Shown one piece after another: positions 36,353-45,378 of a stretch of 64,000 nt of DNA. The notes under the pieces were generated by a model. That model did no database searches and was not told the origin of the DNA. It was given only the letters and a program-made list of their open reading frames with translations. Every line of letters starts with the position of its first letter. Position 1 is the stretch's first letter. Source of the DNA: Kitasatospora sp. NBC_00315 (GTDB taxonomy: Bacteria > Actinomycetota > Actinomycetes > Streptomycetales > Streptomycetaceae); contig NZ_CP108025.1 in NCBI RefSeq assembly GCF_041435095.1, forward strand, positions 4,960,001 to 5,024,000. The letters are read 5' to 3'. The translations under genes and the position numbers were made by a program.

Positions 36353-37480
36353 GTGACTGAGATCGAGATCGGGCGAGGCAAGCGCGGACGCCGGGCGTAC
36401 TCCTTCGACGACATCGCCGTCGTCCCCAGCCGCCGTACGCGGGACCCGAAGGAGGTCTCGATCGCCTGGCAGATCGACGCCTACCGCTTCGAGCTGCCGT
36501 TCCTGGCGGCTCCGATGGACAGCGTGGTCTCGCCGCAGCAGGCCATCGCCATCGGGCGGCTCGGCGGGCTCGGCGTGCTGAACCTCGAAGGTCTCTGGAC
36601 CCGCTACGAGGACCCGCAGCCGCTGCTCGACGAGATCGCCGCGATCACCGACCAGGCCGCCGCCACCCGCCGCCTGCAGGAGATCTACGCGGCCCCGATC
36701 CAGGCCGACCTGATCGGCCGGCGGATCAAGGAGGTCCGCGAGTCGGGCGTCGTGACGGCCGCCGCGCTCTCCCCGCAGCGGACCGCCGAGTTCTCCAAGG
36801 CCGTGGTGGACGCCGGCGTCGACGTCTTCGTCATCCGGGGCACGACGGTCTCCGCCGAGCACGTCTCCGGCGCGGCCGAGCCGCTCAACCTCAAGCAGTT
36901 CATCTACGAGCTGGACGTCCCGGTGATCGTCGGCGGCTGCGCCACGTACACCGCCGCCCTGCACCTGATGCGCACCGGCGCGGCCGGCGTGCTCGTCGGT
37001 TTCGGCGGCGGCGCCGCGCACACCACCCGCAACGTGCTCGGCATCCAGGTGCCGATGGCGACCGCGGTGGCCGACGTCGCCGCCGCGCGCCGCGACTACA
37101 TGGACGAGTCCGGCGGCCGCTACGTGCACGTCATCGCCGACGGCGGCGTGGGCTACAGCGGCGACCTCGCCAAGGCGGTCGCCTGCGGCGCGGACGCGGT
37201 GATGATCGGTGCCGCGCTGGCGCGGGCCACCGACGCCCCCGGCCGCGGCTTCCACTGGGGCATGGAGGCCGTCCACGACGAGCTGCCGCGCGGCAAGCGG
37301 GTGGACCTCGGTACGGTCGGCACCACGGAGGAGATCCTCAGCGGCCCGTCGCACACCCCCGACGGCACGATGAACCTCTTCGGCGCCCTGCGCCGCGCGA
37401 TGGCCACCACCGGCTACTCGGAGCTCAAGGAGTTCCAGCGGGTCGAGGTCACCGTCAACCCGGCGCTGCACCACGGCTGA
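36353..37480 (+). CDS. guaB3: GuaB3 family IMP dehydrogenase-like protein
   Basis: A 375-residue TIM-barrel paralogue of IMP dehydrogenase without CBS domains, starting (V)TEIEIGRGKRGRRAYSFDDIAVVPSRRTRDP. Where the enzyme has GPGSICTTR, this protein has GFGGGAAHTTR (about 216-226), so the catalytic Cys is absent. Phosphate-binding and flap-like regions (ADGGVGYSGDLAKAVACGADAVMIG) remain. The function of actinobacterial GuaB3 is, as far as I know, unsettled. It follows guaB after 160 bases, a conserved arrangement. Confidence 0.92.
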   Translation: MTEIEIGRGKRGRRAYSFDDIAVVPSRRTRDPKEVSIAWQIDAYRFELPFLAAPMDSVVSPQQAIAIGRLGGLGVLNLEGLWTRYEDPQPLLDEIAAITDQAAATRRLQEIYAAPIQADLIGRRIKEVRESGVVTAAALSPQRTAEFSKAVVDAGVDVFVIRGTTVSAEHVSGAAEPLNLKQFIYELDVPVIVGGCATYTAALHLMRTGAAGVLVGFGGGAAHTTRNVLGIQVPMATAVADVAAARRDYMDESGGRYVHVIADGGVGYSGDLAKAVACGADAVMIGAALARATDAPGRGFHWGMEAVHDELPRGKRVDLGTVGTTEEILSGPSHTPDGTMNLFGALRRAMATTGYSELKEFQRVEVTVNPALHHG

Positions 37481-38395: not shown

Positions 38396-40300
38396 ATGAC
38401 CGAGGCGCAGGGTTCCACCGGCCGTCTCCTGGCCGGACGTTACCGGCTGGACGCGGTGCTGGGTCGCGGCGGTATGGGTACCGTCTGGCGGGCCGAGGAC
38501 GAGATGCTCGGCCGGATCGTCGCCGTCAAGGAACTGCGCATGCACGGCGGCGTCGACGAGGAGGAGAAGCACCGGCTGATCGTCCGGACGCTGCGCGAGG
38601 CCAAGGCGACCGCGCGGATCAGGCACACGGCCGCGGTCACCGTCTTCGACGTGGTCGAGGAGGACGACCGGCCCTGGATCGTCATGGAGCTGGTGGAGTC
38701 CCGTTCGCTGGCCGAGGTGATCAAGGAGGACGGTCCGCTGACCCCCGTCCGGGCCGCCGAGATCGCGCTGGACCTGCTCGGCGTGCTCGGCGCCGCGCAC
38801 AGCCACGGCATCCTGCACCGGGACGTGAAGCCGTCCAACGTCCTGATCGGCGAGGACGGCAGGGTCGTGCTGACCGACTTCGGCATCGCGAGCGTCGAGG
38901 GCGATCCCTCGGTGACCTCCACCGGGATGCTGGTCGGCGCCCCGTCCTACATATCCCCCGAGCGGGCCCGCGGGCAGAAGCCCGGTCCGCCGGCCGACCT
39001 GTGGTCCCTGGGCGGGACGCTCTACGCGATGGTCGAGGGCCGGCCGCCCTACGACCGGGGTTCGGCGCTGGCCACGCTCACCGCGGTGATGACGGAGGAC
39101 CTGGGCACCCCGCACAACGCCGGGCCGCTGCGCCCGGTCATCGAAGGACTGCTGGAGAAGGACCCGGCCCGCCGCCTGGACGCCTCCGCGACCCGGGCGA
39201 TGCTCAGGCGGGTCGTCGCCGAGCACACCGTGAAGGCCGAGTCCACCACCCAGCAGGCCGTCCCGATCGAACCCGCCGACGCGCCGCCGGAGCCCGCTCC
39301 GAAGCGCGCGGTGAGCGGTCTGCTCGGGACGGTACGGGTGGGCAGCCGCTCGAAGGGCGACAAGTCCGCCGCCGCGCCCGTTCCCGCCCCCGGACCCGCC
39401 GCGCCCGCGACCCCGTCGCCCGTCGAGCCCGCCGCGCAGAGCGCCCGGCCGGCCGCTCCCGTCGCCGGGACGTGGTCCCGGGGCGAGACGCTGAGCGCCC
39501 GTGGCGCCGCCGGCGCGTCCTGGTGGGCCGCGAGCGCCCGCCGGCGCGCCGTGGTGGTGGCGGTGGTCCTGCTGCTGCTGATCGCCGGGGTGGTCGTGGC
39601 CACCCGGGCCCTGGGCGGATCGGACCGGACCGGGACCGGCGCCGCTCCCGCGGTGGGCGCCTCGACCACCGGCACGGGCCCGGCACCGGCCCAGGACGCC
39701 CAGAGCCCGGCCCCGGCGCAGAGCCCGGTCCAGAGCGCGGCCGTGAGCGGCCCCCCGGCTCCGGCCTCCCCGGCGGACCCGCAGCCCACCTCCACGGCGA
39801 GCACCACGGTGACCTCCGGGCCGGCTCCGGCGACCAACCCCGGTACGGCGGCGGTGCCGGCCGGCTACCGGCTGTTCGCCGACGCCTCCGGGTTCTCGAT
39901 CGTGCTGCCCGAATGGCTGGCCGACGGCGGCGCGGGCTACCACGCCACCAGCCGGAAGTTCGAGGGCCGCGGCGTGCGGCTGCTCGTCGACTGGACGCAG
40001 CCGGGCGGCGCGAGCGCGCTCGCCGACTGGCAGAACAGCGAGTCGAGCCAGAAGGGCCACAACTACCAGCGGGTCGCCCTGCAGGCCGTCACCTACCGGC
40101 AGTGGACCAACGCCGCCGACTGGGAGTGGACCTTCGACGGCAGCTCCCAGCGGATGCACTCGCTCAACCGGGGCTTCGTCACCGGGGGCGGCAAGTACGG
40201 CTACGCCCTCTACTGGACGATGCCCGACGCGGACTGGGCCTCGCCCGACTTCGCGCAGGCGCGGCAGACCGGGTTCGACACCTTCCAGCCGGCCCCGTAG
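38396..40300 (+). CDS. Transmembrane Ser/Thr protein kinase 1
   Basis: A 634-residue Hanks-type (PknB-like) receptor kinase. The N-terminal kinase domain is complete: glycine loop GRGGMGTV (23-30), Lys45 in VAVKEL, catalytic HRDVKPSN (141-148), DFG (161-163) and SPERARG. A Pro/Ala-rich juxtamembrane stretch leads to one membrane helix at about 382-402 and an extracytoplasmic part: a Ser/Thr/Pro linker, then a domain of about 145 residues (GYRLFADASGFSIVLPEWLADGG...). No PASTA repeats are present. The same outer domain type recurs in kinase 2 (41938-43620). Confidence 0.92.
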   Translation: MTEAQGSTGRLLAGRYRLDAVLGRGGMGTVWRAEDEMLGRIVAVKELRMHGGVDEEEKHRLIVRTLREAKATARIRHTAAVTVFDVVEEDDRPWIVMELVESRSLAEVIKEDGPLTPVRAAEIALDLLGVLGAAHSHGILHRDVKPSNVLIGEDGRVVLTDFGIASVEGDPSVTSTGMLVGAPSYISPERARGQKPGPPADLWSLGGTLYAMVEGRPPYDRGSALATLTAVMTEDLGTPHNAGPLRPVIEGLLEKDPARRLDASATRAMLRRVVAEHTVKAESTTQQAVPIEPADAPPEPAPKRAVSGLLGTVRVGSRSKGDKSAAAPVPAPGPAAPATPSPVEPAAQSARPAAPVAGTWSRGETLSARGAAGASWWAASARRRAVVVAVVLLLLIAGVVVATRALGGSDRTGTGAAPAVGASTTGTGPAPAQDAQSPAPAQSPVQSAAVSGPPAPASPADPQPTSTASTTVTSGPAPATNPGTAAVPAGYRLFADASGFSIVLPEWLADGGAGYHATSRKFEGRGVRLLVDWTQPGGASALADWQNSESSQKGHNYQRVALQAVTYRQWTNAADWEWTFDGSSQRMHSLNRGFVTGGGKYGYALYWTMPDADWASPDFAQARQTGFDTFQPAP

Positions 40301-40681
40301 GCCGCGCCCGCCGGACGCGGCGGCGCCGCCACGCCCCGGCCACGCGCCCGCCACGCCCCGCTCCGGGGCGGCTTCGGGACGGATCCGGGCTCCGACGCAA
40401 CCGGCGGTGGCCCTGCGTCGTCCTCGGGGAGAGCGGCCCGGGCCGGATGCGCCGTCCACGCACGGACGCGCCCGGGGTGTCGGGCGGCCGTTGCCGCCAC
40501 CGGCCGCCCGCCGGTGCGATGGTGGCCTCTGGTCGTGTCCGACCGTTCGCGTCGGACCAGCGCGCGGCCACGCCGTCCGGTGCCGAGCGGGTCGAAGGCG
40601 GCGAGGAGCGGGATCGGTCCGGTCCGTGGGATCGAGCGCGGCCGGGCGGCCACGTACGCTGGCGGTGACGAGAGGACAGGC
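40301..40681. other. Gap between kinase 1 and the pseudokinase gene
   Basis: 381 bases with no supported gene. TACGCT at 40655-40660 is a possible -10 for the pseudokinase gene. The remainder is GC-rich with no clear hairpin or operator. Confidence 0.35.
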
Positions 40682-41770
40682 ATGCTGGCGGGCCCGGGGC
40701 AGGTGTTGGCAGGGCGGTACCGCGTGACGGACCGTCCGGAGTACCTGCGGGTGCTCGCGAGGGACGAACAGAACGGCACCGCGGTCCGGTTGCGGGGCCT
40801 TGAGCTGCCCGGCCTGCTGTCGGCCGGTCCGACGGCGGAGGATCCGGTGCCGGCGCAGGGCGCGCGGCTCGCGCGGCGGGCGGCGCAGGCCGCGGCGGCG
40901 GCGCCCTCGCACCACCGGCTGCTGCGGGGCGGCGAGGCTTTCGTGGACGGCGAGTTGCTCTGGCTGGTGGAGGAGTACCCGGCCGGGGCCCCGCTGGACG
41001 TGCTCGCGCTCGACGGGCCGGTGCCGGTCCACCGGGTCGCCGAGCTGGCGGCGGATCTCGCGGGCGCGCTACGGGCCCTGCACGAGGCCGGTCTGACACA
41101 CGGAAACGTTTCGGCCGCGTCGGTGCTGGTCTGCGAGGACGGCGCCGCCCTGCTCGGCGGCCTGACCTCGGGCGTGGCGGAGGAGGCGCTCTGCGAGGAG
41201 CTCGGCGGCCCGGCCGGGCGCCGCCGGTACGAGGTGCGGGCCGGGCTGCTCGGGCCCCGGGCGGAGCGCTGGCCGATGGACGGCGGCCCGGCCGGGGACT
41301 GCTGGGCCCTGGGCGTGCTGCTGTACCGCCTGCTGACCGGCGTCGCGCCGTACCCCGAGGACGACCTGCCCACCCTGCTCGGCGCCGTCCGGGACGGCCG
41401 GCGTGCCCCCGCGTACGACTGCGGCGCGCTGGGGCCGCTGGTCGAGCGGCTGCTCCAGCCGGACCACGCGCTGCGCCCGACGGCGGTGCAGGTGTGGCGG
41501 GAGGCGACCGAGGTACTGGCTGGCGCCCCGGAGCCGTACGGTACGGCGCCGCCCGTCCTGCTGCCGGTGCCGCGGCCCGAGGCGGGGCCGTTGGTGCCCC
41601 GTCAGCGCCCGGGCCGGCGAGGGGCCGGCCCGGTGGAGGGCGAGGCGCGGGGCGGTCCGCCGCGCCGGGCGCCGCGGCTGCCGCCGGCGCTGCTGGGCCC
41701 TCTGGTGGTGGCCGGTGTGCTGGTGGCGCTGGTGCTGGGACTGGCCGGTGTGGTGTTGTTCGCAGGCTGA
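40682..41770 (+). CDS. Membrane-anchored pseudokinase
   Basis: A 362-residue protein with a kinase-like fold that lacks the catalytic residues. The ATG at 40682 has GAGAGGA upstream. It opens with LAGRYRVTD like the flanking kinases, but the glycine loop is absent, the catalytic loop is HGNVSAAS (140-147) instead of HRDVKPSN, and DFG is replaced by LGGLTSG. The C-lobe structural motif GDCWALGVLLYRLLTGVAPY is kept. The end is a basic linker and one membrane helix (about 336-360) with almost nothing outside. It probably binds or modulates rather than phosphorylates. Confidence 0.85.
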   Translation: MLAGPGQVLAGRYRVTDRPEYLRVLARDEQNGTAVRLRGLELPGLLSAGPTAEDPVPAQGARLARRAAQAAAAAPSHHRLLRGGEAFVDGELLWLVEEYPAGAPLDVLALDGPVPVHRVAELAADLAGALRALHEAGLTHGNVSAASVLVCEDGAALLGGLTSGVAEEALCEELGGPAGRRRYEVRAGLLGPRAERWPMDGGPAGDCWALGVLLYRLLTGVAPYPEDDLPTLLGAVRDGRRAPAYDCGALGPLVERLLQPDHALRPTAVQVWREATEVLAGAPEPYGTAPPVLLPVPRPEAGPLVPRQRPGRRGAGPVEGEARGGPPRRAPRLPPALLGPLVVAGVLVALVLGLAGVVLFAG

Positions 41771-41937
41771 CGGGCCGTGCCGCAGATCACGGGGCGGTCA
41801 CGTGGCCGGGGCGGGAGCCCGGGTGCCCGCCGGGCGGCCTAATCTGTGCGTGAGAGAGATGTTCGAACGGTGGTCAGTGCGGTGCACCGGGCCCTCCGTC
41901 ACGGTGACGGCAGGTGGATGAGGGGGAGCGGTCGCCA

Positions 41938-43620
41938 ATGGGCGTTCAGGATCGGCCGGGGGCGGCCGCGGCGGAGCGGCTGCTGGCCGGCCGGTACGAG
42001 CTGGGGGAGCGGCTGGGCCGGGGCGGCATGGGCACGGTCTGGCGTGCCCGGGACCGGATGCTGGACCGCGAGGTCGCGGTCAAGGAGTTGACGGTCAGCC
42101 ACCTCCCCGAGGAGGAGCTGGAGATCCTCAACGCCCGGATGAAGCGGGAGGCGAGCGCCGCCGCCCGGATCAAGCACCCCGGCGTGATCACCGTCCACGA
42201 CGTGCTGGAGCAGGACGGCCGGCCCTGGATCGTGATGGAGCTGGTCGACGGCCGCTCGCTGGCCGACGTGATCAGCCAGGACGGCACGCTGATGCCCAGG
42301 GAGGCCGCCGAGGTCGGCGCCCAGGTGCTGGCCGCGCTGCACCGGGGGCACCAGCTCGGCGTGCTGCACCGGGACGTCAAGCCCGGGAACGTGCTGCTGG
42401 AGCGGGGTACCGGCCGGGTCGTCCTGCTGGACTTCGGCATCGCCACGTACGAGGGCTCGGCCGAGCTGACCCGCCCGGGTGATCTGGTCGGGTCGCCCGA
42501 CTACCTCGCCCCCGAGCGGGCCCAGGGCGAGCGGCCGGGCCCGGCCTCCGACCTGTGGGGCCTGGGCGCGACGCTGTACGCGGCGGTGGAGGGGGAGTCC
42601 CCCTTCCGCCGCACCTCGCCGCTGACCACGCTGGCCGCGGTGGTCGGCGACCCGCTGCCGGAGCCGCGCCGGGCGGGCGCGCTGGGGCCGGTGCTGGCCG
42701 CGCTGATGGCCAAGGACCCGGCCGAGCGGCCCACCGCCGACGAGGCGCTGCGGATGCTCGCCGAGGTGACGGCCGGGCACACGATGGGCTTCAAGGCGGT
42801 GCCCGGGAGCGTGCCGAAGGTGCCGACCCAGGCGGTGCCGGTGGTGGACCGGACCGGTACGGCCGGCGGCGCGCCCGAGACCGGGGAGGCGGTCACCGTG
42901 CCCCGCCCGGACGCGGCCGTGGCTCCGGCCACGGTGCCGGACGCCCCGGCCGCGCCGGTGGCGCCCGACGCGGCCGCCGCCCCGGCCGCCGCCGGGAAGG
43001 CCGGGCGCCGCCGCGGCCGGCTGGTGCTGAAGGTGGCGGTGCTGGGGCTGGTCACCGCGCTGCTGGCCGGTACGGGGGCGTACCTGGCGGCCAGCCGGCG
43101 GCACGGGGACGGCGGCGTGGCCGCCCCGACCCCGACGGTGGGCCAGCAGTCCGTCAGTCCGGGGGCGGCCGCACCGGCCGGCTACCGCTGGACGGACGAC
43201 CCGGGCGGCTTCCGCTTCCTCCTCCCGCTCACCGGCGGGGTCTGGCAGCGCAGCATGGACAGCAACCAGATCTACTACAGCCCCGACGCCAAGTCGCACT
43301 ACCTGCAGTTCGCGGTGACCGTCGGCCAGTCGACCCGTCCGCGCGACCACCTGGCCGAGCTGGAGGCCACGGTCAGCAAGAACCTGACCGGGTACGCCCA
43401 GCTCAGGCTGGCGGACGCCAAGGTCAAGGGCCACGACGCGGCGGTCTGGGAGTTCTCGTACGCGGCGAAGGAGGGCGGGCGCCGGCACGCGATCGAGGCC
43501 GAGTTCATCGACGGCCAGGGCACCGCGTACGCCGTCTACCTGTCCTGCCCGGACAAGGACTGGACCGAGGGCCAGCAGCGCTTCACCACGGTGCTGAACA
43601 GCTTCGAGCCCACGGGCTGA
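41938..43620 (+). CDS. Transmembrane Ser/Thr protein kinase 2
   Basis: A 560-residue receptor kinase from the ATG at 41938 (GAGGGGGAG upstream; a GTG at 41914 would add eight residues). Kinase motifs are intact: GRGGMGTV (27-34), Lys49, HRDVKPGN (144-151), DFG (165-167) and APERAQG. One membrane helix at about 362-385 is followed by a linker and an outer domain (GYRWTDDPGGFRFLLPLTGGVWQR...) of the same type as in kinase 1. It is 167 bases after the pseudokinase gene; TAATCT at 41840 could be its -10. Confidence 0.92.
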   Translation: MGVQDRPGAAAAERLLAGRYELGERLGRGGMGTVWRARDRMLDREVAVKELTVSHLPEEELEILNARMKREASAAARIKHPGVITVHDVLEQDGRPWIVMELVDGRSLADVISQDGTLMPREAAEVGAQVLAALHRGHQLGVLHRDVKPGNVLLERGTGRVVLLDFGIATYEGSAELTRPGDLVGSPDYLAPERAQGERPGPASDLWGLGATLYAAVEGESPFRRTSPLTTLAAVVGDPLPEPRRAGALGPVLAALMAKDPAERPTADEALRMLAEVTAGHTMGFKAVPGSVPKVPTQAVPVVDRTGTAGGAPETGEAVTVPRPDAAVAPATVPDAPAAPVAPDAAAAPAAAGKAGRRRGRLVLKVAVLGLVTALLAGTGAYLAASRRHGDGGVAAPTPTVGQQSVSPGAAAPAGYRWTDDPGGFRFLLPLTGGVWQRSMDSNQIYYSPDAKSHYLQFAVTVGQSTRPRDHLAELEATVSKNLTGYAQLRLADAKVKGHDAAVWEFSYAAKEGGRRHAIEAEFIDGQGTAYAVYLSCPDKDWTEGQQRFTTVLNSFEPTG

Positions 43621-43749: not shown

Positions 43750-45378
43750 ATGACGGACCTCACGGCAGACGCACCGGCCCCCGCCCAGCCCGGCCGCAAC
43801 CCCGCCGCCCCGGGCGCCGCCCGCACGGTGGCCTCCGTGGTGACCCCGGCGCTCGTCGCCCGGCTGGCCGCGGGTGTCACCGCGACCGGCGAGCCCGAGT
43901 GCGCGCAGACCGTCGCCCCGCTGACCGGCGAGCACCTCGCCACCCTGCCGCGGTCCACACCGGCCGACGTCGAGGTGGCGTACGAGGTGGCCCGCCGCGC
44001 CCAGCGCAGCTGGGCCGCGCTGCCCGTGCGCCGTCGCGCCGCCGTCCTGCTGCGCTTCCACGACCTGCTGCTGCGCCGCCAGGACGAGGTGCTCGACCTG
44101 ATCCAGGCCGAGACCGGCAAGGCCAGGCTGCACGCCTTCGAGGAGGTGATGGGCGCCGCGCTCGCCGCCCGGCACTACGGCCGGACCGCGCACCGCTACC
44201 TGCGCGACCGCCGCCGCGGCGGCGCCGTGCCCGGGCTCACGCACACCGTCGAGGCGCGCCGTCCGAAGGGCGTGATCGGGCAGATCTCGCCGTGGAACTA
44301 CCCCCTGGAGCTGTCGGTCGGCGACGCGCTGCCCGCCTTCGTGGCCGGGAACGCGGTGGTCAACAAGCCGGACACGCAGACCGCGCTGACCGCCCTGTGG
44401 GCCCGCGAGCTGCTGGTCGAGGCCGGCCTGCCCGCCGACCTGTGGCAGATCGTGATCGGCGACGGCCCGGTGATCGGCCCGGCCGTCGTGGAGCACGCCG
44501 ACTACGTCTCGTTCACCGGCTCGACCCGCACCGGCCGCGAGGTCGCCCAGCGGGCCGCCGCCCGGCTGGTCGGCGCCTCGCTGGAGCTCGGCGGCAAGAA
44601 CGCCCTGCTGGTGCTCGCCGACGCCGACCTGGACAAGGCCGCCGAGGGCGCCGTCCGGGCCTGCTTCTCCTCGGCGGGCCAGCTCTGCATCTCGGTCGAG
44701 CGGCTCTTCGTGCACCGCTCGGTCGCCGACGACTTCCTGGCCCGTTTCGCGGCCCGCACCGGCGCGCTGCGGCTCGGCGGCGGGCTCGCCTACGGCGCCG
44801 AGATGGGCTCGCTGGTCTCCGACCGGCAGCTGGAGGTCGTCACCCGGCACGTCGAGGAGGCGGTCAAGGGCGGCGCCACGGTGCTGGCCGGCGGTCGGCC
44901 CCGCCCGGACCTCGGCCCGCTGTTCTTCGAGCCGACCATCCTGGACGGCGTCACCGAGGGCATGACGGTCTGCGCCGAGGAGACCTTCGGCCCGGTCGTC
45001 TCGGTCTACCGCTTCGACACCGAGGACGAGGCCGTCGCCGCCGCCAACTCCACGCCGTACGGACTGAACTCCAGCGTCTGGACGAAGGACGCCCGGCGCG
45101 GCCGGGCGGTCGCGGCCCGGCTGCGCACCGGCACCGTCAACGTCAACGAGGCGTACGCGGCGGCGTACGGCTCGGTCGCCTCGCCGATGGGCGGGATGGG
45201 CGACTCCGGGCTCGGTCGCCGGCACGGCTCCGAGGGCATCCTGCGCTTCACCGAGGGGCAGACCATCGCCACCCAGCGGCTGCTGCCGATCGGCCCCTCC
45301 CTGGGGCTGGACGACGAGCGGTTCGCCGCCCTGTTCACCACCGGCCTGAAGGCGATGAAGACCTTCCGGTTCAAGTAG
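43750..45378 (+). CDS. gabD2: Succinate-semialdehyde dehydrogenase (NADP+) family
   Basis: A 542-residue aldehyde dehydrogenase close to the actinobacterial GabD2 group, which oxidises succinic semialdehyde to succinate. The NAD(P) site is GQISPWNYPLEL and FTGSTRTGREVA, the general base is Glu279 in LELGGKN and the nucleophile is Cys313 in SSAGQLCISVER. The first 40 residues are a poorly conserved Ala/Pro-rich extension. The exact substrate is not certain. It is 87 bases upstream of the GMC oxidoreductase on the same strand. Confidence 0.85.
   Translation: MTDLTADAPAPAQPGRNPAAPGAARTVASVVTPALVARLAAGVTATGEPECAQTVAPLTGEHLATLPRSTPADVEVAYEVARRAQRSWAALPVRRRAAVLLRFHDLLLRRQDEVLDLIQAETGKARLHAFEEVMGAALAARHYGRTAHRYLRDRRRGGAVPGLTHTVEARRPKGVIGQISPWNYPLELSVGDALPAFVAGNAVVNKPDTQTALTALWARELLVEAGLPADLWQIVIGDGPVIGPAVVEHADYVSFTGSTRTGREVAQRAAARLVGASLELGGKNALLVLADADLDKAAEGAVRACFSSAGQLCISVERLFVHRSVADDFLARFAARTGALRLGGGLAYGAEMGSLVSDRQLEVVTRHVEEAVKGGATVLAGGRPRPDLGPLFFEPTILDGVTEGMTVCAEETFGPVVSVYRFDTEDEAVAAANSTPYGLNSSVWTKDARRGRAVAARLRTGTVNVNEAYAAAYGSVASPMGGMGDSGLGRRHGSEGILRFTEGQTIATQRLLPIGPSLGLDDERFAALFTTGLKAMKTFRFK

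Follow-up and report, generated by a model that had tools for sequence, protein, structure and literature searches.

A membrane pseudokinase between two receptor kinases in a probable three-gene form of the SCO4775-4779 cluster of Streptomyces coelicolor

What does a protein that is built like a kinase, and is to all appearances unable to act as one, do between two intact receptor kinases? The question is raised by three adjacent genes, here called K1, PsK and K2, in a stretch of 64,000 nucleotides (G000:C1:4960001-5024000, referred to as the window) of an 8.3-Mb genome. On balance, the locus is probably a three-gene form of the SCO4775-4779 cluster of Streptomyces coelicolor, in which PsK corresponds to SCO4776 and is an inherited pseudokinase that acts on K1 without phosphotransfer. 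The genes and the parts discussed below are located in the window as follows.

38396..40300, + strand: K1, a receptor serine/threonine (Ser/Thr) kinase of 634 amino acids (aa) with intact motifs, provisionally placed as the counterpart of PkaH (SCO4775)
39803..40297, + strand: outer domain of K1, of a PsbP-like family and related to the outer domain of K2
40682..41770, + strand: PsK, a tail-anchored pseudokinase of 362 aa, provisionally placed as the counterpart of SCO4776 and as a stripped relative of the pseudokinase family ActPs2
41099..41107, + strand: HGN in place of HRD, PsK residues 140-142 (HG in 66/66 and HGN in 61/66 loci of the genus; Asn142 in 97/102 PsK sequences)
41264..41272, + strand: ERW motif in the P+1 loop region, PsK residues 195-197 (E195 and W197 in 102/102 PsK sequences)
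41525..41536, + strand: juxtamembrane APEP motif, PsK residues 282-285 (APEP in 98/102 PsK sequences)
41699..41758, + strand: C-terminal transmembrane helix of PsK by hydropathy, 3 residues from the end of the protein (helix at 335-361 in a low-confidence model)
41938..43620, + strand: K2, a receptor Ser/Thr kinase of 560 aa with intact motifs, closest to the PkaD (SCO4777) slot
43123..43617, + strand: PsbP-like outer domain of K2 (Pfam PsbP, E 1.7e-6; profile match to 2xb3, E 1.4e-6)

The first-pass annotation had described K1 and K2 as intact transmembrane Ser/Thr kinases, and this is upheld: they score 152.9 and 159.3 bits with Pkinase, have full motifs and carry a membrane helix, the one correction being that K2 begins at the ATG at 41938 and not at the GTG at 41914 where its frame had been opened. 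PsK likely starts at the ATG at 40682, which is preceded by GAGAGG. It had been called a pseudokinase for having HGNVSAAS in place of HRDVKPSN, no glycine loop and no DFG, and motif alignment bears out each of these points. In K1, PsK and K2, respectively, the glycine loop is GRGGMG, absent and GRGGMG, the beta3 motif VAVK, VRLR and VAVK, the catalytic loop HRDVKPSN, HGNVSAAS and HRDVKPGN, and the DFG region TDFG, GGLT and LDFG. The tail anchor is likewise real by hydropathy, as the protein stops directly behind its C-terminal hydrophobic helix. The C-lobe is kept as had been proposed; an N-lobe persists as well, in a degenerate form, with R12, Y13, D28 and V35 at least 95% conserved.

Conservation within the genus speaks to the age of this defect. 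PsK has a strong orthologue, with an E of 4e-47 or better, in 68 of 70 genomes, that of the window included, with no inner stop codon among the matches listed. In G044 just 348 bases of contig precede the K2 orthologue, which would put PsK beyond the contig end; in G048, an assembly of ~1290 contigs whose best K2 match is 43% identical, loss of PsK and an assembly gap are indistinguishable. Sixty-six loci were compared, comprising the window and 65 of the 67 loci from other genomes; G023 and G047, where PsK stands at a contig end, were left out, and an apparent truncation in L095 (G050) is explained by PsK running into a run of N. The beta3 Lys, the HRD Asp and the DFG Asp are each found in 0/66 of these PsK, while each is kept in 63/64 sequences classed as K1 (a set that includes two fragments of one split gene) and in 66/66 classed as K2 (including one further kinase from L067). 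GG takes the place of DFG in 66/66, and the Glu of ERW is seen in 65/66, the 66th falling in the N run. As the catalytic residues are missing from every PsK compared while its neighbours keep them, the defect is no accident of one strain; judged by these alignments, it is ancient and inherited, and PsK is presumably catalytically dead.

By sequence, PsK has the kinase fold. PsK itself is borderline (31.5-32.2 bits vs the Pfam cut-off of 31.7), and Pkinase is detected in 22/22 family members scanned at E <=0.01, the best at E 4.8e-15. The structure models cover the window's own proteins, are poor (predicted local distance difference test, pLDDT, 52.0 and 47.1) and give weak fold support only: the low-confidence PsK model (pLDDT 52) matches kinases at E 1.2e-9, with low template-modelling scores of 0.32-0.36 by query length.

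PsK exists in two forms. The tail-anchored HGN type occurs in genera g1 (that of the window), g3, g4 and g12; the HRN type occurs in g6-g10, g13, g14 and g16 and is receptor-like, with an outer part of 185-228 residues where a helix is called. Among the 98 PsK with a called helix, 2-4 residues follow it in 74, 8 in one, 45 in one and 185-228 in 22, the protein with 45 being that of g11, an exception that has HRN. Conservation was assessed over 102 PsK from 13 genera, 78 tail-anchored and 24 of receptor type, with L095 and L128 dropped. Position 141 separates the types completely, being Gly in 78/78 and Arg in 24/24. From HxN to ERW, the window's PsK counts 55 aa and the g10 proteins 298-436 aa (8/8 loci); in these g10 loci (L119-L126) the length of this activation-loop stretch is strongly variable and its flanks align well. 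In a phylogenetic tree all PsK lie on one side of a branch with a Shimodaira-Hasegawa-like approximate likelihood ratio (SH-aLRT) support of 100, and the tail-anchored type forms one branch (99). K1 and K2 form one branch each, with the four g10 slot-3 kinases retained by the filter grouping as sisters to K2 (98). The tree carries short-search support and leaves out three PsK without the sought motif and most further kinases, owing to a start-motif filter. As it is also unrooted, the direction of change is taken from the shared outer domain, which suggests that the window's PsK is a derived, stripped form and that the outer domain was lost in one clade.

The three genes had further been said to look like a self-contained signalling module, with their joint conservation as the test. 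Within the genus they pass it, the order K1, PsK, K2 being plain in 61/66 loci; of the five exceptions, two are contig ends (L060, L061), and the others are owed to the N run in L095, to a K1 in two pieces in L070 and to another kinase upstream in L067. In L070, K1 is divided between two frames, and the kinase occupying the K1 slot of L067 finds its better match in K2. Across the family only K1 and PsK are constant companions. The family sample holds 61 genomes of 17 genera, nine of them from the window's genus; loci were taken from 40 of the other 52 genomes and 12 were left. By profile score, 38 of these 40 loci contain PsK. L132, the one locus examined from g15, has no PsK by that score, and L127 was taken at a place without PsK, the PsK of its genome (G092) lying elsewhere. 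The nearest kinase upstream of PsK, within 700 nucleotides, is K1 in 37/38 loci outside the genus, and the 38th (L099) is a contig edge.

Downstream of PsK the picture depends on its type. A K2 kinase domain follows tail-anchored PsK within 700 nucleotides in 65/66 genus loci and in 13/13 others, a count that misses kinases whose start motif the script overlooked; in 12 of these 13 the kinase scores >500 with the K2 profile, and the 13th is cut off. Behind receptor-type PsK, a kinase scoring >500 with the K2 profile is found in 0/25 loci; some kinase follows in 18/25, and one locus (L128) ends there. In 6/38 loci outside the genus (L105, L115, L116, L118, L129, L138), all of them with receptor-type PsK, no kinase stands between PsK and the aldehyde dehydrogenase gene, and many other genera have further kinases in this place, the cluster of the Streptomyces-like g10 comprising three to six kinase-family genes. 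As K1 is fixed upstream while the downstream neighbour varies, K1 and PsK are the constant pair. K2 is dispensable outside the window's clade, and its presence alongside tail-anchored PsK marks one branch of the tree and not many events. Since K2 is missing in some genera and g10 has up to six kinase genes, the notion of a self-contained trio does not hold.

The probable identity of the cluster follows from its surroundings. The locus reads guaB, guaB3, a minus-strand 190-aa frame, K1, PsK, K2, aldehyde dehydrogenase and GMC oxidoreductase, with two genes serving as synteny markers.

36353..37480, + strand: guaB3 (IMP dehydrogenase-related), the upstream marker
43750..45378, + strand: aldehyde dehydrogenase, the downstream marker

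The gap between K1 and PsK (40301-40681) is 381 bases in the window, with a genus median of ~480, and is ~11 nucleotides in three g3 loci; these lengths suggest that the two genes have promoters of their own in one genus and are coupled in the other. In S. coelicolor, five separately transcribed kinase genes, SCO4775 (pkaH), SCO4776, SCO4777 (pkaD), SCO4778 (pkaI) and SCO4779 (pkaJ), are described in the accessible text of Ladwig et al. 2015 (PMC4416010). For SCO4770 and SCO4771, the accessible part of PMC3293853 gives annotations of the IMP dehydrogenase type, and both are placed under nucleotide biosynthesis (PMC6344877). Genus g10, which we infer to be Streptomyces, with the window's genus a sister such as Kitasatospora, shows the order guaB-guaB3-K1-PsK-kinase(s)-aldehyde dehydrogenase where the stretch is long enough. 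Of its eight loci, four carry five kinase-family genes; the other four have three, four, six and six, although short stretches may cut some off. A published 14-residue activation-loop peptide of PkaI fits the slot-4 kinase best in 7/7 g10 loci (11, 13, 12, 14, 13, 12 and 13 of 14 residues; other slots 5-9), L125 with its three kinases being left out of the peptide comparison. By gene order, PsK is the second kinase gene of the cluster, directly behind K1 in the pkaH slot. On the strength of gene order and the PkaI peptide, PsK is the likely counterpart, and would be the orthologue, of SCO4776, while K1 likely corresponds to PkaH and K2 to PkaD or its sister. The likeness thus lies in the position after guaB and SCO4771-type genes, the first three genes in order and the PkaI-like peptide in g10 slot 4. 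The window's genus differs in holding only K1, PsK and K2 there, with a PsK that lacks both the activation-loop insert and the outer domain. Ladwig et al. treat all five genes as kinases, with no mention of a pseudokinase in the accessible text (PMC4416010). Likewise, where the accessible text of open-access PMC literature names SCO4776, it is counted as a kinase and never termed a pseudokinase, older S. coelicolor kinase catalogues being outside this scope.

If this placement is right, published strains already bear on PsK, as spore walls suffer both from loss of the cluster and from extra dosage of its genes. According to the accessible text of PMC4416010, a five-fold deletion mutant has 16.81% dead spores and vancomycin-sensitive germinating spores, and no single gene brings about restoration. 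A second copy of each gene, SCO4776 being among those tested, causes a sporulation defect by the figure legends, and a second copy in M145 or a pkaI mutant causes vancomycin sensitivity, except with pkaI; the authors read these defects as imbalanced (‘overbalancing’) kinase activity (PMC4416010). If SCO4776 is catalytically dead, its share of this harm must be non-catalytic, that is, due to binding. In the accessible part of a proteomic study, four of the five cluster proteins are listed and PkaI is undetected, and PkaI and PkaH phosphorylate MreC (PMC9739823); MreC is encoded in the window's genome.

The type of pseudokinase is also one that has been described. ActPs2, in the accessible part of O'Boyle et al. 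2025 (PMC12599244), is a mostly actinobacterial family with a beta3 Arg, Asn for the HRD Asp, DFG deleted in most members and a transmembrane region at the C-terminus; some 90% of its members have an insert of ~32 aa between beta3 and alphaC, and some 90% one of ~250 aa, disordered, in the activation loop. A model with ATP places R42 and R177 at the phosphate as possible ATP contacts, and the functions of conserved bacterial pseudokinase families, ActPs2 included, are stated as unknown (PMC12599244). The window's PsK has the beta3 Arg (R38; Arg in 20/24 receptor-type and 23/78 tail-anchored PsK), the Asn (N142; 24/24 and 73/78), the DFG loss and the C-terminal transmembrane region. It has neither insert: the distance from HxN to ERW leaves no room for ~250 aa, and between beta3 and alphaC it is only ~7 residues longer than K1, while receptor-type sequences appear longer there. 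At the second ATP-contact position, Arg is found in 12/24 receptor-type PsK and 11/78 of the window's clade, so that the proposed contact arginines are lost in most of that clade. Counted from assumed start codons, 7/8 g10 loci have their beta3 Arg at residue 42 and 2/8 have Arg at residue 177; both numbers coincide only in L126, and this numbering is not used as proof. The receptor-type PsK of g10, with its long activation-loop insert, fits the description of ActPs2. With three motif features and the transmembrane feature present and the two inserts absent, the window's HGN form without an outer domain is, by comparison with the published description, a stripped relative of ActPs2 rather than an ordinary member.

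The outer domains of K1 and K2 had been called related and unlike PASTA, and both statements stand. They share 29% identity over 163 aa (E 9e-9; profile probability 99.65), and the outer domain of receptor-form PsK is homologous to those of K1, K2 and the other cluster kinases (profile probabilities 97.95-99.85). No PASTA domain is found in Pfam at E <=1; instead, the domain is PsbP-like. A profile of 28 outer-domain sequences matches the PsbP structure 2xb3 at E 1.4e-6 and the chloroplast NDH subunit 9grx at E 9.2e-5, the K2 domain of the window scores 28.6 bits with Pfam PsbP vs a cut-off of 23.5, and 10/28 members match at E <=0.1. Foldseek with a poor model also ranks PsbP-type chains first, at E of only 0.03-0.2. 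The kinase domains of K1 and K2 do match the kinase part of the model for PASTA kinases (PknB/Stk1 family), but with scores of 242-243 against a cut-off of 450 and no PASTA repeats outside, the two are ruled out as PASTA kinases.

PsK is seen in loci of 14/17 genera of the family sample. Genera g2 and g5, whose loci were not taken, show weak matches only. Among the 12 untaken genomes, the matches in eight (G070, G073, G086, G088, G090, G096, G098 and G104, of g2, g5 and one g8) do not go beyond 8.3e-19, and PsK may be absent there; the other four (G102, G105, G111, G114) have matches of 3.4e-26 or better. In the order sample, strong matches occur in 25/25 g10 genomes (E 1.1e-68 or better) and in 0/15 genomes outside the family, where the best, at 6e-19, are probably ordinary kinases. 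Nonomuraea keeps guaB-guaB3 with no kinase found within 9 kb on either side of guaB3. The kinase cluster therefore looks like an innovation of one family. In the window's genome, a 1584-aa frame at G000:C1:2080443-2082143 has two separate weak kinase-domain matches (57.8 and 38.9 bits) and is possibly a double kinase or kinase-pseudokinase protein.

How might a dead kinase act on K1? PsK would sit in the membrane beside K1 (PkaH) and work without phosphotransfer; its kinase-like domain and juxtamembrane motif would bind K1, and in the window's clade probably K2 too, and this binding would set the strength with which K1 and K2 pair and with which they act on the machinery of the spore wall (MreC, PBP2). 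That the pseudokinase scaffolds or allosterically controls its neighbours, as first proposed, is thus plausible, and its binding to K1 and K2 and control of their activity are what we infer from several hints, namely the effect of extra gene dosage in the published strains, the conservation of ERW and APEP, and partly kept dimer residues of PknB. Over the 102 PsK, 57 positions are at least 95% conserved, E195 and W197 among them.

A number of observations weigh against this reading. Retention of the PknB-type dimer residues (R10 and D76 in PknB numbering) is only partial, the counterparts of R10 and D76 being kept in 24/24 receptor-type PsK with L33 replaced, and in 76/78 and only 6/78 of the tail-anchored type. 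The evolution of PsK is also faster than that of its neighbours' kinase domains. Median ratios of nonsynonymous to synonymous substitution rates (dN/dS; Nei-Gojobori, 1606 pairs; L095, L060, L067 and L070 excluded from the rate tests) are 0.71 for PsK, 0.26 and 0.29 for the K1 and K2 kinase domains and 0.79 and 0.97 for their outer domains; against the three closest relatives the ratios are 0.37-0.42 for PsK, 0.03-0.11 for the kinase domains and 0.46-0.55 for the outer domains. The medians are probably inflated by synonymous saturation at high G+C content, and dN/dS is not strong evidence in either direction. Rate covariation with PsK over 58 genus genomes (partial r) is 0.71 and 0.65 for K2, 0.44 and 0.24 for K1 and 0.42, 0.26, 0.03 and 0.03 for four neighbouring control genes. 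In the window's clade this favours K2 over K1, the constant neighbour, and the values exceed those of the controls only in part. The match to the S. coelicolor cluster is imperfect as well: exactly five kinase genes occur in only half of the g10 loci, a second published PkaI peptide favours slot 4 in only 4/7 loci (12/14 in L122) and another slot in three, and the proposed SCO4776 orthology derives from gene order and peptides and not from the sequence of SCO4776, as scanning genome contigs with back-translated PkaI peptides brought up no hit. In the accessible text of PMC4416010, SCO4776 transcription is constitutive and pkaH is undetected by reverse-transcription PCR, though a microarray study noted pkaH as highly expressed; together with separate transcription, this does not suggest a fixed stoichiometry. 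Finally, a linear plasmid of Streptomyces sp. NBC_01456 (L150:3905-5911) encodes a ‘protein kinase’ (WP_329155944.1) that scores 230 bits with the PsK profile vs 98 with K1 and 58 with K2; having HRN, lacking DFG and carrying both a long activation loop and an outer domain, it is a relative of receptor-type PsK, and no other kinase lies in the 9 kb around its gene. Coming from a named Streptomyces, it also offers an indirect check on the naming of g10. A match with identical figures is found on a plasmid of strain NBC_01454, and in a tblastn of the window's PsK against plasmids (16 records) no place reaches 80% coverage of the query.

That solitary plasmid gene is among the evidence for PsK being an independent protein, born by tandem duplication, with other partners and with a linkage to K1 that reflects ancestry and gene-order inertia. 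The homologous outer domains of the cluster members would agree with this, and as the whole order from guaB to the GMC oxidoreductase is conserved, linkage alone is weak evidence for a partnership; we nevertheless consider this account unlikely, as the adjacency of K1 and PsK persists while K2 and the other cluster kinases come and go. A further account borrows from MviN (ActPs3) of Mycobacterium tuberculosis, an actinobacterial membrane pseudokinase tied to wall synthesis whose pseudokinase domain is part of a larger transmembrane protein, a lipid flippase. In the accessible part of PMC12599244, MviN is a phosphorylated adaptor in wall synthesis control, and K1 and K2 could in the same way phosphorylate the cytoplasmic part of PsK, to which a phosphothreonine-binding protein would be recruited and brought to the wall-synthesis machinery. 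PsK adjoins two intact kinases and has a stretch between its kinase-like domain and membrane helix that could serve; however, APEP, the most conserved juxtamembrane element, is without Ser or Thr, and MviN comes from a different pseudokinase family and is not placed between receptor kinases, which leaves this route with a rather small chance. Membership of PsK in ActPs3 itself is ruled out by VRLR, HGNVSAAS and GGL vs VALT, Lsidhpsr and Y--.

PsK could also bind nucleotide or perform a non-kinase transfer in the manner of SelO or SidJ. The ATP model of ActPs2 (accessible part of PMC12599244) and the contact arginines of the receptor type (20/24 and 12/24) would allow for it; with those arginines at 23/78 and 11/78 in the window's clade and the DFG and HRD Asp gone, such an activity is distinctly improbable. 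Least credible of all is a decaying gene without function: the faster evolution of PsK would fit, but an orthologue in 68/70 genus genomes with no inner stop among the matches listed, a spread over 14/17 genera and 57 near-invariant positions over 102 sequences make this very hard to believe.

The reading of PsK as an inherited, non-catalytic partner of K1 is therefore retained. New here are the link of an unassigned pseudokinase family to the spore-wall cluster, the recognition of the SCO4776 counterpart as a pseudokinase and the tail-anchored form with its stripped build, none of which was met in the literature surveyed; the receptor-kinase cluster and the pseudokinase type were already known. 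A pseudokinase family is now placed in a kinase cluster of a model organism with published deletion and second-copy strains. More tentatively, and with somewhat less than an even chance in our estimate, SCO4776 and its relatives serve PkaH as obligate partners, non-catalytic and dosage-critical, and in this role set the phosphorylation of the spore wall. If so, ActPs2 would gain a biological role, and the effect of extra SCO4776, so far attributed to overbalancing kinase activity, would be reinterpreted. The stripped, tail-anchored PsK is a natural minimal version of the protein and, if the partner reading is true, would show which part of it is needed.

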